A DNA stretch of 64,000 bases from assembly GCF_016865485.1 (NCBI RefSeq), contig NZ_AP024452.1, positions 4,362,501 to 4,426,500 on the forward strand. Direction: 5' to 3'. The position numbers and the translations under genes were made by a program. Below, piece after piece: positions 17,510 through 57,563 of this stretch; position 1 is the stretch's first letter; the number at the start of each line of letters is the position of its first letter. This stretch comes from Luteitalea sp. TBR-22. GTDB taxonomy: Bacteria > Acidobacteriota > Vicinamibacteria > Vicinamibacterales > Vicinamibacteraceae. The notes beneath the pieces are model-generated. The model saw only the letters and a list, made by a program, of their open reading frames with translations, searched no databases and was not told the origin of the DNA.

Positions 17510-17514
17510 GCGCG

Positions 17515-17541
17515 GGAGTCGGGAGTCGGGAGTCGGGAGTC
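17515..17541. repeat. GGGAGTC heptamer array, left half of an inverted pair
   Basis: About four direct copies of GGGAGTC, starting just after the PilZ stop codon. An inverted array (17621-17653) faces it across an ~80-bp core, so the whole 17515-17653 gap could form one long hairpin. Confidence 0.85.
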
Positions 17542-17620
17542 GGAAACAACCCCGCCCACGGCGTCCTTTCGGCAAACGGCGCTGGACTCCGTGTCACGAG
17601 AGCAGCAGGGTCTGCCTGCG

Positions 17621-17653
17621 GACCGACTCCCCATTCCCGACTCCCGACTCCCG
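17621..17653. repeat. GGGAGTC heptamer array, inverted half
   Basis: On the + strand it reads GACTCCC-CATTCCC-GACTCCC-GACTCCCG. It ends at the base immediately before the (minus-strand) stop codon of the M28 peptidase gene. Confidence 0.85.
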
Positions 17654-19036: not shown

Positions 19037-19090
19037 ACCGGTTACCGGGCACCGGGCAGCGGGCAGCGGGCACCGGGCACCGGGCACCGG
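19037..19090. repeat. Heptamer array, ACCGGGC class
   Basis: About seven copies of ACCGGGC (two read AGCGGGC) in strict 7-bp register, upstream of the M28 peptidase start. Confidence 0.85.
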
Positions 19091-20962: not shown

Positions 20963-21892
20963 CTACTGTTCGAGCACGTACTCCCGCCGCGCCACGGTCC
21001 GCATGGCCAGGGTGAGGCCGACTGCCACGATCACGGCCAGCCAGAACAGGCTGGTGCCGACGGCCGGGAACTCCCGGAAGAGCGACGTGAGGAGGCTGAC
21101 GGTGCTGTCGTCGGCCGGCATCGCCTGCGGCACGAGGCCCTGCAGGTAATAGGCAACCGTGAACCGGCGCAGGTAGCCCGGGATGACCAGGATGGCCGGC
21201 TCCCAGGCGAACACGAAGGCCAGGCCGGTGAGCAGGGGCCGCTTGAAGCGGGCGCCGACCCAGGCGAACAGCGCCCCGTAGGTGGCCAGCCCGAGGGCGA
21301 TCACCACGAGGTCCTTGACCAGGTCGAGGAAGCCGCCGGCGAGCGACCCGCCGGGCCGCGACATGATGAGCAGGTACACCAGCACGACCGACGGCAGCAC
21401 CACGGCGATGGTGCACACCAGGTACGCCAGGTACTTGCCGAGCAGCACCGCGCCGCGCGGGATGGGCCGCGAGAACAGGTAGGTGATCGTCTTGTCCTCG
21501 ACCTCGTCGGCCATCAGCGACGTGCCGTAGAACACCGCGAGCACGGGGACGGCGAAGCGCAGGTAGAACACCCACACCATCAGGCCGAAGATGGCGCCGC
21601 TGCCCACCCGCACGCCGTCGATCTGCACGCCGCCGCTGCCGGCCGAGAACATGTCGATGACGCGCACCATCAGCGCGATCAGCAGCGGCCCGCCGACCAC
21701 CAGCGCCATGAACACCGTCCGCCGCGACCAGAGCATCTGGTCGAGGGAGAGGTCGAAGATGCGGGCGGCAGCGCGGGGGAGGGAGAGGCTCGCCTCAGCG
21801 CGGCTCGCAGGCACGGCGGGAGTCGGGAGTCGGGAGTCGGGAGTCGCCGAAGGGCCAGTCGACACAGGCAGCGCGTCAGTAGGCATGAGCAT
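20963..21892 (-). CDS. ABC-2 type permease
   Basis: A 309-residue membrane subunit with about six transmembrane helices, starting FMALVVGGPLLIALMVRVI and ending FWLAVIVAVGLTLAM. The ADEVEDKTITYLFSRPI loop is a hallmark of ABC-2 exporter permeases. It would pair with one of the ATPases encoded at 22.4-25.2 kb, from which it is now separated by an inverted gene. The N-terminal ~40 residues include PDSRLPTP, which is the translation of a GGGAGTC heptamer array, so the true or ancestral start may be further in, near the SLSLPRAAARIFDLSLDQML segment. Confidence 0.87.
   Translation of the reverse strand: MLMPTDALPVSTGPSATPDSRLPTPAVPASRAEASLSLPRAAARIFDLSLDQMLWSRRTVFMALVVGGPLLIALMVRVIDMFSAGSGGVQIDGVRVGSGAIFGLMVWVFYLRFAVPVLAVFYGTSLMADEVEDKTITYLFSRPIPRGAVLLGKYLAYLVCTIAVVLPSVVLVYLLIMSRPGGSLAGGFLDLVKDLVVIALGLATYGALFAWVGARFKRPLLTGLAFVFAWEPAILVIPGYLRRFTVAYYLQGLVPQAMPADDSTVSLLTSLFREFPAVGTSLFWLAVIVAVGLTLAMRTVARREYVLEQ
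21818..21848. repeat. GGGAGTC heptamer array inside the permease N-terminus
   Basis: Four copies of GGGAGTC, followed by the 17-base string GGGAGTCGCCGAAGGGC (21839-21855). That string recurs in inverted orientation at 57523-57539. With the inverted array at 22344-22410 it brackets the four-helix-bundle gene. Confidence 0.85.
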
Positions 21893-21909
21893 TGCTCCGA
21901 ACGTTGGGC

Positions 21910-22275
21910 ATGGGCATCGTACGTACCTATCAGGATCTCGAGGTGTGGCAGACGTCGATCGAACTCGCCGTCGACATCACACGACTGGCCAACCAGTTGC
22001 CACAGAGCGAGTTGTACGCGCTGGGGCTGCAGTTGCGCAGAGCGGCGATTTCGGTCCCCAGCAACATCGCCGAGGGATACGGCCGCTCGACACGGCCGGA
22101 ATATGTGCGCTTTCTGCGCATAGCCCGAGGTTCCAATGCTGAAGTCTCCTCACTGCTCATCATCGCCACCCGGCTGGGCTACCTCAGTGAGGCACGAGCT
22201 GCACGCACCCGCGAAACCAACGATCGCATTGCCGCCATGCTGACTCGCCTGCTTCAGACGCTCGAAGGGCGTTGA
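21910..22275 (+). CDS. Four-helix-bundle protein (23S rRNA intervening-sequence protein family)
   Basis: A 121-residue protein of the family first known from intervening sequences in 23S rRNA. Typical segments: YQDLEVWQTSIELAVDI, then LYALGLQLRRAAISVPSNIA, EGYGRSTRPEYVRFLRIARG and SNAEVSSLLIIATRLGYL. Its molecular role is not known. It is oriented against the ABC-2 operon that surrounds it, looks less GC-rich than its neighbours, and is bracketed by inverted GGGAGTC heptamer arrays, all of which suggest insertion. The start is either ATG 21910 or an upstream ATG at 21892 that would overlap the permease start. Confidence 0.9.
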   Translation: MGIVRTYQDLEVWQTSIELAVDITRLANQLPQSELYALGLQLRRAAISVPSNIAEGYGRSTRPEYVRFLRIARGSNAEVSSLLIIATRLGYLSEARAARTRETNDRIAAMLTRLLQTLEGR

Positions 22276-22343
22276 CTTGTCGACTGCCAGCGTTCCTTAA
22301 GGTGCAGTGACCCTGTATCTGTCATCCGCCGTGTGCGGGCCTT

Positions 22344-22410
22344 CCCCACTCCCCACTCCCGACTCCCGACTCCCGATTCCCGACTCCCGACTCCCGACTC
22401 CCGATTCCCG
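22344..22410. repeat. GGGAGTC heptamer array, inverted orientation
   Basis: On the + strand about nine words reading CACTCCC, GACTCCC or GATTCCC. The array ends at 22410, directly against the minus-strand stop codon of the ABC ATPase gene. Confidence 0.9.
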
Positions 22411-23378
<968 letters not shown>

Positions 23379-23382
<4 letters not shown>

Positions 23383-24221
23383 GCCACCACCTCCACGCCG
23401 CGCACGCGGCGCTCGAGCACCGAGGCGGCCACCGCCACCACCGCGACGAGCACGATGAACGACACGGCGACCGGCGTCTGGTGGCGCGGCGCCTGCCTGA
23501 AGATCACGTCACCCACCTGGTCGAGGCTCGCCTGGATCGAGACCCAGGACACCGCGGTGCTGCCGGTGATGAAGCGGAGGGCGTTGAACATCGCATCCGA
23601 GAAGATGAGCACGCCCGCGAAGAGGATGCCGACGAACCGGCTGCTGCGCGACAGCGACGAGAGCGCCGTCATCCCGAAGGTGATCACCAGGGTGAGCACG
23701 AGGCAGTAGAGCGTGATCGAGGCCACCAGCGAGGAGTTGGCCTTGAGGAACGTGAAGCTGCCCGAGAAGGCGATCTGCAGCACCAGGAGCAGGATGGCCG
23801 GTAGCCAGGTGATGGCGAGCAGGAACGTGGCGAGCACGGTCATCTTGCCGAGGATGTACTCGGCGCGGGTGACCGGCTTGGACAGGTACAACTGCAGCGC
23901 GTTGGCGCGTCGGTCGTTGGCGATGAGCCCGGCGCCGACGTACACGGTGACCAGGAACACGAAGATCTGCTGCTGGCCGAGGAAGTCGCGGAACGTCTGC
24001 GGCGTCGGCGCCAGGAACGTCGCCGCCTGCGAGAAGTTCGACGCCAGGAACAGCTGGCTGGCCCGGACGACGAACGGGATCCACGCGGCCAGCAGCAGGC
24101 CCAGGAAGGCCCGCTTCACGATGAACCCCATGAGACCGGCGCGGGCGATGACGGTCCAGGCGCTGCGCACCGGCCGGCGCTCGCCGGAGTAGCGCCGGTA
24201 CGACTGGTCATGAATGGGCAC
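23379..24221 (-). CDS. ABC-2 type permease
   Basis: A 280-residue membrane subunit with about six helices, e.g. AFLGLLLAAWIPFVVRASQL and FLVTVYVGAGLIANDRRANA. LQLYLSKPVTRAEYILGKM is the typical ABC-2 cytoplasmic loop. It lies between two ATPase genes: overlapping the upstream one by 14 bp and the downstream one by 4 bp. This ATPase-permease-ATPase-permease arrangement implies either one heteromeric exporter or two related ones. The substrate is unknown; no lipid, antibiotic or polysaccharide gene is next to it. Confidence 0.9.
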
Positions 24222-25152
24222 GGCCGCCTCCTTCGATGGCGTCGATGAAGACGTCCTCGAGCGTCGGCACGCTCGGGCGCAGGTGACGCACCTGCATGTC
24301 CTGCGCCGCGGCGAGGGCGAACACGTCGCGCGCCGACCGGCCGGCCGGCACCAGCACCCGCATCACGTCCTCGTCGGTGCCGTGCGCCTCGAGCCCCTGC
24401 CCGCGCAGCACCTCGATGAAGCGCGGCAGGTCGCCCTTGATCCGCAGCTCGAACACGCTGCCGCCGGTGCCCTTCAGCGTCGCGATCGGCCCCTGCGTCG
24501 CCACCCGGCCCTTGTCCATCACGATGACGTGGTCGCAGGTGTGCTCGACGTCGGGCAGCAGGTGCGACGACAGGATCAGGTTGACCCGCTTGTTGTGCCC
24601 GAGGTCGTGGATGAGCGCGAGCATCTCGTCGCGGCCCTTCGGGTCCATGCCGTTGGTCGGCTCGTCGAGGAACAGCAGGTCGGGGTCGTGCACCAGCGCC
24701 TGCGCGAGCTTGATGCGCTGCTTCATGCCCGTCGAGTAGGTCTCGATGTTGCGGTAGCGCGCCTCGCCGAGGCCGACGTAGTACAGCACCTCGTGGGCGC
24801 GCTGCATCGCGTCCACCGGCGGCAACCCCGAGAGCTGCCCGCAGTAGGCGACGAAGGTCACCGCGTTCATCCCGGGGATGTGCGCGTCGTTCTCCGGCAT
24901 GTAGCCGATGCGCGCCCGGATGTCCTGGGCCTTGTGGCGCACGTCGAGGCCGAGCACGGTCATCCGGCCCTGTGTCGGCACCACGAAGCCGAGCAGCGCC
25001 TTGATCATCGTGCTCTTGCCGGCGCCGTTCGGCCCGAGCAGGCCGACGGCCCCCGGCGGAAAGTGCGCCGCCACGCCGGCAAGCGCCTGATTCTTCCCAT
25101 AGACGACGGTCACGTCGTCGAGGGCCACCACGGAAGAGGGATCGGGAGTCAC
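24208..25152 (-). CDS. ABC transporter ATP-binding protein (ABC-2 export type)
   Basis: A 314-residue ATPase that opens the exporter operon. Motifs: Walker A GPNGAGKST, Q-loop IGYMPENDAHIPG, signature YSTGMKQRIKLAQAL, Walker B LLFLDEPTNGMD, H-loop SSHLLPDVE. A C-terminal tail, PSVPTLEDVFIDAIEGG, is the classical end of this subfamily. It pairs with the permease at 23379-24221, whose start overlaps its 3' end. A period-7 array lies directly upstream, in the likely promoter region, and extends toward the HD gene. Confidence 0.93.
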   Translation of the reverse strand: MTPDPSSVVALDDVTVVYGKNQALAGVAAHFPPGAVGLLGPNGAGKSTMIKALLGFVVPTQGRMTVLGLDVRHKAQDIRARIGYMPENDAHIPGMNAVTFVAYCGQLSGLPPVDAMQRAHEVLYYVGLGEARYRNIETYSTGMKQRIKLAQALVHDPDLLFLDEPTNGMDPKGRDEMLALIHDLGHNKRVNLILSSHLLPDVEHTCDHVIVMDKGRVATQGPIATLKGTGGSVFELRIKGDLPRFIEVLRGQGLEAHGTDEDVMRVLVPAGRSARDVFALAAAQDMQVRHLRPSVPTLEDVFIDAIEGGGRAHS

Positions 25153-25169
25153 GGGAGGTCGCGGGCGGT

Positions 25170-25232
25170 CGGGAATCGGGAATCGGGAATCGGGAATCGG
25201 GAGTCGGGAATCGGGAGTCGGGAGTCGGCTGC
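25170..25232. repeat. GGGAATC/GGGAGTC heptamer array
   Basis: About eight consecutive copies, the first ones GGGAATC and the last mostly GGGAGTC. It sits 18 bp upstream of the ABC ATPase start. No inverted partner is evident before the HD gene 3' end; the remaining ~90 bp (25233-25323) show nothing I can name. Confidence 0.9.
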
Positions 25233-53725: not shown

Positions 53726-53850
53726 GAAGGGAGTCGGGAGTCGGGACTCGGGAGTCGGGAGTCGGGAGCCGGGACTCGGGAGCCGGAACTCGGGAGTCGG
53801 GCAGCCCGCACCGGGCACCGGGCACCGGGCGCCGGGCGCCGGGCAGGGCG
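53726..53850. repeat. Composite heptamer array, GGGAGTC then GCACCGG
   Basis: About ten GGGAGTC-like words (variants GGGACTC, GGGAGCC, GGAACTC) pass directly into five GCACCGG/GCGCCGG words in unbroken 7-bp steps, with one short join. It is the only place where two heptamer classes are fused. Confidence 0.9.
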
Positions 53851-57432: not shown

Positions 57433-57445
57433 GACTGCACAGGGA

Positions 57446-57476
57446 CGGGAGTCGGGAGTCGGGAGTCGGGAGTCGG
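57446..57476. repeat. GGGAGTC heptamer array between mreB and mreC
   Basis: Four copies of GGGAGTC, starting 14 bp from the mreC start. It faces an inverted array at 57523-57563 across an ~45-bp core, so this gap repeats the design seen at 17515-17653. Confidence 0.88.
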
Positions 57477-57522
57477 CATACGGGATGCGTCAGGTGCACC
57501 GGGACAGAGCCCGCTGCACGCC

Positions 57523-57563
57523 GCCCTTCGGCGACTCCCGATTCCCGCTTCCCGATTCCCGAG
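57523..57563. repeat. Inverted GGGAGTC heptamer array
   Basis: Contains GCCCTTCGGCGACTCCC, the exact inverse of the 17-base string at 21839-21855, followed by GATTCCC, GCTTCCC, GATTCCC. It ends 8 bp before the mreB stop codon. Confidence 0.85.

Follow-up and report, generated by a model that had tools for sequence, protein, structure and literature searches.

The S23 Gene and Its Inverted Heptamer Arrays

The 64-kb stretch of the Luteitalea sp. TBR-22 genome analyzed here, hereafter called the window, contains a gene for a four-helix-bundle protein of the S23 family (23S_rRNA_IVP, TIGR02436), which lies at 21910..22275 on the forward strand, is flanked on both sides by heptamer arrays in opposite orientations and is set within a run of ABC transporter genes on the reverse strand. 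The gene starts with ATG, an in-frame TTG at 21892 being an alternative start, and profile searches place its product over the cut-offs of PF05635 (E 1.6e-35, 122 bits, cut-off 33.8) and TIGR02436 (E 7.9e-34, 116.2 bits, cut-off 24). The closest solved structure is 2gsc (XCC0516; E 7.1e-24), and 2rld is another solved relative. The left array, (GGGAGTC)4, occupies 21815..21847 on the forward strand, with its purine-rich strand reading toward the S23 gene, and the right array, of about nine GGGAGTC/GGGAATC-type units, is inverted at 22343..22410 (reverse strand) and ends at the stop codon of the adjoining ATPase gene. The 30-nt arms of the two arrays are 97% complementary. When the whole element of array, gene and inverted array (21815..22410) is folded as RNA, both arrays are predicted to pair in a 32-bp terminal stem (minimum free energy -276.4 kcal/mol, z -7.1, 20 shuffles), and the locus thereby has the stem-forming terminal inverted repeats around an open reading frame (ORF) that characterize intervening sequences (IVSs) of 23S rRNA. 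Its site lies between ABC genes rather than within an rRNA gene, and blastn found no match to large subunit (LSU) rRNA at this locus (L001).

The ABC genes follow one another as ATPase, permease, ATPase and permease, all on the reverse strand. The last of them, an ABC-2 permease at 20963..21892, has its present N-terminus read through the left array, which contributes the residues PDSRLPTP (within ...TPDSRLPTP... of the ORF translation). An ATPase at 22411..23382 adjoins the right array, and ORFs with profile matches identify the rest of the run as a second ABC-2 permease at 23379..24221 and a second ATPase at 24208..25152. An earlier note on this DNA, drawn from its letters alone, had described the gene as opposite in strand to this run, the flanking GGGAGTC arrays as opposed in orientation, one array as encoding part of the permease, and the protein as a member of the family known as passenger of 23S rRNA IVSs; all of this is borne out. 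The window has 33 copies of GGGAGTC compared with 14.2 +- 4.0 in shuffled sequences, a number that 0 of 100 shuffles reached.

To describe such flanks we used as score the best local match between the 400 bp to the left of the S23 gene and the reverse complement of the 400 bp to its right, values of >=34 (strict) or >=30 (looser) being taken as cognate inverted flanks. At the ABC site, 30 loci were compared (the present one and 29 from relatives), two of which end before the site. Three hold an S23 gene, namely those of the host genome (hereafter G000) and of its congeners G001 and G004, and all three have inverted flanks, with scores of 55, 38 and 60; three more (L039, L043 and L056) have inverted repeats without S23, and the remaining 22 full-length loci score <=30. 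The S23 gene of G001 is a different one, enclosed by GGGTACC/GGGTCAC arrays, and the site has CGGCAAC arrays but no gene in G002, a short AGGTGCG-type insert in G006, and neither S23 gene nor arrays in G005 (L057), where by eye the permease start codon (ATG) overlaps the stop codon of the ATPase gene. The neighboring ATPases of G001 and G004 are 93% and 91% identical, respectively, to that of the window.

S23 Sites in the Host Genome and Its Congeners

The host genome (6.47 Mb, single contig) has six PF05635 matches, of which five are over the cut-off. All five have inverted cognate flanks, with scores of 55, 46, 36, 52 and 70, and each has a repeat of its own: CGGGAGT (GGGAGTC in another register), CGGCAGT, GGGCTCA/AGGCTCA, ATTTGAA and TCATGAC. 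The array pattern is therefore wider than the earlier note held. GGGAGTC arrays are not specific to the window gene either, and the idea that they mark this gene alone is ruled out by the 598 GGGARTC dimers found genome-wide. The sixth, sub-cut-off copy (L006, G000:C1:504659-504889) lacks inverted cognate flanks (score 23). It encodes one of three shorter S23-like proteins, with L192 of G001 and L198 of G004, that are mutual best matches; inverted arrays flank the copies in G001 (62) and G004 (61) and are missing from that in G000, and blastn found no flanking DNA common to the three loci.

All five over-cut-off sites of G000 hold S23 in G001 too. By blastn, sites 1, 2, 4 and 5 match G001 on both sides and site 3 on its upstream side only, while sites 1-4 match G004. 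Host DNA of G000 can be aligned with that of G001 only as far as the arrays, the alignment ending at their edge or inside them, and the S23-bearing interior is not alignable as DNA. Within each site the left and right arrays match (flank scores for G000/G001 of 55/38, 46/56, 36/34, 52/40 and 70/72 at sites 1-5), and yet the repeats differ between the two genomes at all five sites: CGGGAGT is replaced in G001 by CGGGTAC/CGGGTCA at site 1, CGGCAGT by CGGCCTT at site 2, AGGCTCA by AGGCTGC/AGGCTAC at site 3, ATTTGAA of period 7 by the 8-mer AATTTCAG of period 8 at site 4, and TCATGAC by TCATTGG at site 5. G004 carries the G000 repeat at sites 1 (score 60) and 3 (43) and one resembling ATTTGAA at site 4 (37); at site 2 its repeat is that of G001, with a weak right array (score 30). 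It is the repeat that differs and spreads.

The earlier note had also suggested that gene and arrays may be a mobile cassette with the arrays as its ends, and that arrays mark insertion sites. The arrays are indeed the ends of a gene-containing unit, given that the alignment of G000 with G001 stops there, and no ABC locus was seen with the gene and without arrays. Mobility of the gene itself does not stand in the form proposed, since the sharing of all five sites indicates that S23 moves rarely; nor do the arrays serve as a fixed end or insertion mark, the same ABC site having other repeats in G001 and G002.

The co-variation of repeat and protein extends to amino acid change, which at the four comparable sites appears larger for S23 pairs with unlike repeats than for those with like repeats, a supportive contrast in the sequences. 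Pairs with like repeats have dN/dS of 0.12, 0.17, 0.18 and 0.12 at sites 1-4, and an additional like-repeat pair outside the five sites has 0.11; pairs with unlike repeats have 0.47 and 0.30 at site 1 and 0.32, 0.28 and 0.29 at sites 2-4.

Such differences at one site could come about in place or by cassette replacement, with the whole element swapped through recombination at the arrays. The second course is possible, if the less favored of the two. The DNA alignment breaks at the arrays, as expected of a swap, and the G000 and G001 proteins of site 1 score 275 to each other compared with 270 to proteins of other phyla, a very small margin, while the top score of the G001 protein of site 3 (232) is equaled by a protein from a different family (232). 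Against replacement, a same-site gene is the top protein match at all five sites for the S23 of both genomes, by a clear margin at sites 2, 4 and 5, and the paired repeats have bases in common (CGGGAGT/CGGGTAC, CGGCAGT/CGGCCTT, AGGCTCA/AGGCTGC, TCATGAC/TCATTGG). Two more sites that look orthologous by eye, L007/L025 and L012/L015, also have differing repeats.

Inverted Cognate Flanks around S23 Genes across Bacteria

A pooled set of 187 S23 loci was reduced to 170 by removing eight that had a 40-mer in common with an earlier locus and nine with short flanks. Five of the eight were the same locus fetched twice, and L272, L290 and L298 resemble genes in other records; for two of these three the retained copy (L104, L133) scores lower. 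L279-L282 lie outside the analyzed set. Cognate inverted flanks are present in 129/170 loci at >=34 and in 149/170 at >=30, so that array ends and gene do occur together elsewhere, with other repeats. Mismatched flanks reach >=34 in 48 of 3380 pairs (1.4%) and >=30 in 2.8%; flanks shifted outward by 600 bp do so in 2/157 and 8/157 cases, and those shifted by 900 bp in 0/149 and 3/149.

The same picture emerges from the sub-sets, the counts of which are not additive because the accepted flank lengths vary slightly between analyses. The set from the host genome and its near relatives comprises 35 S23 loci, 34 with both flanks, of which 30 score >=34 (0/29 when shifted 600 bp outward), and genes for PIN proteins from the same 60 genomes, taken as controls, reach this threshold in 1/30 cases near the gene and 1/27 outward. 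Named loci from many phyla give 49 at >=34 and 61 at >=30 among the 73 with both flanks (80 loci in all), and five named genomes together with the order of Dyella give 32 at >=34 among 40 with flanks (42 loci). Plasmid S23 loci, from the 11 of 29 plasmid records read, have strict flanks in 8/11. The arrays flanking S23 are therefore not a chance product of repeat-rich genomes, an explanation ruled out by the mismatched-flank, outward-flank and PIN controls. Three S23 genes on cyanobacterial plasmids lie between operon genes: cas6 and cas4 (L098), cas10 and cmr3 (L103), and ribonucleotide reductase genes (L100).

Among the 129 strict loci the best arm period is 7 in 106, 8 in 14 and 9 in 4, and the strand reading toward the S23 gene is purine-rich in 109. 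(In L043, L016, L018 and L190 some of the arrays depart from period 7, with a period of 8 or 9.) Aligning the repeats of 85 loci by rotation gives the consensus [TC][AC]G[GT][GT][AG]N, with 4.29 bits compared with 3.21 +- 0.12 for letter-shuffled heptamers (maximum of 100 shuffles, 3.57), and repeats at S23 loci thus have a loose common skeleton. The window locus belongs to a widespread class in which an S23 gene lies within inverted arrays of a private, mostly 7-base repeat; this anatomy recurs across many phyla in named genomes, and also on plasmids and in one 23S rRNA gene.

Dispersed Repeats and the S23 Genes of the Same Genome

The repeats found at S23 sites are also dispersed elsewhere, and those of sites 1-4 follow in part the S23 locus of their own genome. 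In 400-kb samples of G000 and G001, respectively, dimers number 28 and 9 for CGGGAGT, 0 and 27 for CGGGTAC, 10 and 0 for CGGCAGT, 6 and 0 for AGGCTCA, 0 and 4 for AGGCTGC, 2 and 0 for ATTTGAA, and 0 and 4 for AATTTCAG, with overlap between the genomes for CGGGAGT, CGGCCTT and GGGCTCA; CGGGTCA, AGGCTAC, ATTTGAG, TCATGAC and TCATTGG have 0 dimers in both samples. Over whole genomes, CGGCAGT has 111 dimers in G000 (5 for the reversed pattern used as control), 1 in G001 and 0 in G002-G006, and CGGGAGT has 379, 142, 0, 13, 120, 0 and 2 in G000-G006.

A survey of the order of Dyella extends this relation to GGGAWTC, the dimers of which were counted in 101 genomes, 38 with S23 and 63 without. At least 10 dimers are present in 8/38 S23-bearing and 2/63 S23-negative genomes (Fisher 0.0055). 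The five genomes with GGGAWTC arrays at S23, recognized by eye, have 4, 274, 123, 230 and 85 dimers, in comparison with a median of 0 in the other 33 S23-bearing genomes (p 2.5e-4), one of which, G076, has 29. Of note, a single array at G131:C1:130033-130305, in a genome without PF05635 match, has at least 39 GGGATTC units.

Intervening Sequences of rRNA and Other Known Systems

The Azospirillum lipoferum plasmid locus L102, the sole match to an LSU rRNA query among 145 S23 loci by blastn, has inverted GAGGACG/GATGACA arrays around S23 within bacterial LSU rRNA. In the IVS of Coxiella, tandem GACAGAT heptamers of strain-variable copy number precede the S23 start, as stated in the consulted part of the account by PMC4990558. 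Because of the anatomy of L102 and these Coxiella heptamers, S23-bearing rRNA IVSs look like the array-S23 element residing in an rRNA gene. The two have in common the protein family and an ORF within stem-forming inverted repeats, as that part of PMC4990558 describes the IVS; they differ in that the window element is intergenic, and dispersed copies of the repeat go unmentioned in the same part of the Coxiella account.

Intergenic heptamer arrays of the same sort have been described before. Those of Xanthomonas and Nostoc, of the GGGAATC type, are presented as G-quadruplex arrays in the relevant sections of PMC4692102, which place them near the upstream gene in Xanthomonas and count 70 convergent array pairs in Xcc and 75 in Xac; the corresponding sections of PMC4679880 describe TAACTGA repeats in Beggiatoaceae. 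The terms 'four helix', 'S23' and 'intervening' are absent from the main text of both papers. Two genes of the order of Dyella that resemble XCC0516 (PDB 2gsc), L298 and L305, have GGGATTC/GGGAATC arrays, which is the repeat type described in Xanthomonas by those sections of PMC4692102; XCC0516 itself lies outside this comparison. In what is mainly open-access literature, consulted in part, we found nothing that connects S23 genes with heptamer arrays apart from the remark on the Coxiella repeat. The Avd protein of diversity-generating retroelements is described as similar to PF05635 and as indispensable for retrohoming (PMC10053308, in the part seen), and since such a protein serves retrohoming there, an RNA intermediate would be possible for the S23 element as well. 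The anatomy and the co-variation described above are direct observations, from which we infer mobilization.

The closest parallel is with repetitive extragenic palindromic (REP) sequences and the REP-associated tyrosine transposases (RAYTs). REPs are palindromes, and RAYTs are Y1/HUH transposases that are thought to copy REPs to other sites in trans. As in REP/REPIN-RAYT systems, a low-copy gene is enclosed by inverted copies of a repeat whose family is scattered through the host genome, where part of the copies form short inverted pairs (direct cognate pairs are equally frequent). The S23 element differs in its protein, a four-helix bundle without match to the Y1/HUH (TnpA_REP) transposase, and in its unit, a direct tandem heptamer in which palindromy arises only between opposed arrays. 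A repeat family with a dedicated gene is thus of a kind already known; new here are the unrelated protein and the different form of repeat.

A Candidate Protein-Repeat System and Its Alternatives

These data support a protein-repeat pair in which the repeat spreads and turns over and the gene stays in place. By analogy, S23 may provide the specificity in a system of the REP/RAYT kind, through which it would propagate its heptamer in trans; the S23-bearing rRNA IVSs would then be a special case. To this proposal we assign a probability of roughly one half. The S23 protein, the Xanthomonas relative of which is a pentamer, would bind the array or its hairpin as specificity factor and let host enzymes copy arrays into further intergenic sites in trans, as supposed of RAYTs for REPs. 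The gene would mostly stay put, with concerted turnover of the repeat on its two flanks and at other places in the genome, and residence of the element in a 23S rRNA hairpin would give an S23-bearing IVS. A broader version can be entertained only tentatively, at somewhat less than even odds: that there is a pan-bacterial class of mobile repeats for which S23 proteins provide the dedicated specificity, each recognizing its own heptamer array and driving its spread in trans, with repeat and protein co-evolving in the manner of an arms race, and that this one class has given rise to the intergenic heptamer arrays in cyanobacteria, xanthomonads and others as well as to the S23-bearing rRNA IVSs. 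No function is assigned to S23 proteins, and intergenic heptamer arrays lack an established source; such a pairing, if true, would join both questions, besides supplying an origin for S23-bearing rRNA IVSs. It would amount to a genome parasite akin to REP/RAYT but based on an unrelated protein that has no known transposase domain, and the pair is directly testable by binding and deletion.

Several observations weigh against this proposal. The window protein has no nuclease or transposase domain, only PF05635 in Pfam and TIGR02436 in NCBIfam being over cut-off, and no target-site duplication could be established, the junctions being too diverged by eye from the gene- and array-free L057. The S23 loci were the highest-ranking profile matches in each search and do not form a random set, and matches far outnumber the loci examined; 21/170 of the pooled loci score <30, and the Mantel correlation between protein and repeat is weak (r -0.12, p 0.003, 85 loci). 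At site 5 the unlike-repeat pair has a dN/dS of only 0.18, with no like pair for comparison, and the dN/dS contrast at the other sites is not proof because dS (1.0-2.1) is near saturation. Site-5 repeats also have no dispersed dimers in the 400-kb samples of G000 and G001. In those samples GGGCTCA (10 and 4) and CGGCCTT (3 and 4) do not separate the two genomes, nor do CGGCCTT dimers genome-wide (34, 49, 1, 1, 13, 0 and 0 in G000-G006), and CGGGCAC has 12 and 1 dimers with no S23 partner found. G001 has its 142 CGGGAGT dimers, yet none of the S23 matches read there (7 of 10) carries this repeat. Sampled arrays have an exact match to the repeat of an S23 locus read in their own genome in only 17/40 cases in G000 and 16/70 in G001. 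Orphan arrays, among them those of CGGGCAC, CGGCGTT, CGGGGAT and AAACGTC (G000 sample, L206-L225), have no S23 partner among the loci read; these classes may have been left behind by S23 genes since lost, or may be part of another system. In the order of Dyella, G078, in which the S23 read has GGGACCG-type arrays, has 111 GGGAWTC dimers, and the S23-negative G131 and G155 have 92 and 49.

The pairing of arrays tells in the same direction. Cognate array pairs <=1500 bp apart number 10 inverted and 12 direct in 1.26 Mb of G000 and G001, as counted by a strict array finder that failed to pick up the S23 locus of G001. Eight of the inverted pairs have interiors of 53-210 bp, one contains S23 and one an ORF of 133 aa that is DoxX-like by eye, enclosed by inverted AGGGACC/AGGGACA arrays (L253:6766-7450, G000); no further inverted pair large enough to hold a gene was seen in these stretches. 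Inversion is thus the rule around S23 and not among gene-less arrays, since gene-less direct pairs are as frequent as inverted ones.

The alternative that survives best, if still an unlikely one, is regulatory. S23 would be an RNA- or DNA-binding regulator, the dispersed arrays its target sites near gene ends and the arrays at its own gene a means of autoregulation, all spread by slippage, recombination and selection. The strong predicted stem of the window element agrees with it, as do the purifying selection on S23 (dN/dS 0.11-0.47) and the position of Xanthomonas arrays in intergenic regions near the upstream gene (PMC4692102, sections cited above). A spreading element fits better than a regulon because congeners differ in repeat at several common dispersed sites and because the identical anatomy is found within an rRNA gene. 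Less probable is a selfish element acting in cis only, with S23 and its arrays moving or persisting as a unit and dispersed arrays left over by decay or made by slippage. The inverted termini around a single gene, the sites without gene and arrays and the differing interiors at the ABC site are what it predicts, but dispersed arrays far exceed S23 genes (the 111 CGGCAGT dimers of G000 correspond to one S23 locus with CGGCAGT) and all five S23 sites are common to G000 and G001. That arrays are hot spots, generated by replication slippage for unrelated reasons, in which S23 genes land or are tolerated is very improbable, for although period-7 arrays are common (40 in the 400-kb sample of G000) and most lack an exact S23 partner, the inverted match of S23 flanks is far commoner than in mismatched flanks, PIN genes of the same genomes reach only 1/30, and dispersed repeats can be predicted in part from those at S23 loci.

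Other Arrays in the Window

Period-7 arrays are present at 12 places within the window. Among those without S23, a gene-less inverted CGGGAGT pair at 17512..17653, with 87 bp between its arrays, has a CGGGTAC array at the same place in G001, and a gene-less inverted CGGGAGT/GGGAATC pair at 57444..57562, with 63 bp between arrays, has CGGCCTT and CGGCGTT repeats there. The array scan also found a solo GGGAATC/GGGAGTC array at 25168..25228 (forward strand). The array places at 19044 and 35032 have no array at the corresponding sites of G001, and another G000 site, L254:423, has a different repeat in G001. The comparison of arrays between G000 and G001 comprises 25 rows; for 10 of these the G001 stretches lack one of the flanks, and such rows are counted neither way. 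A solo CGGGAGT array at 53729..53774 (forward strand) has CGGGAGT at the same place in G001 too.

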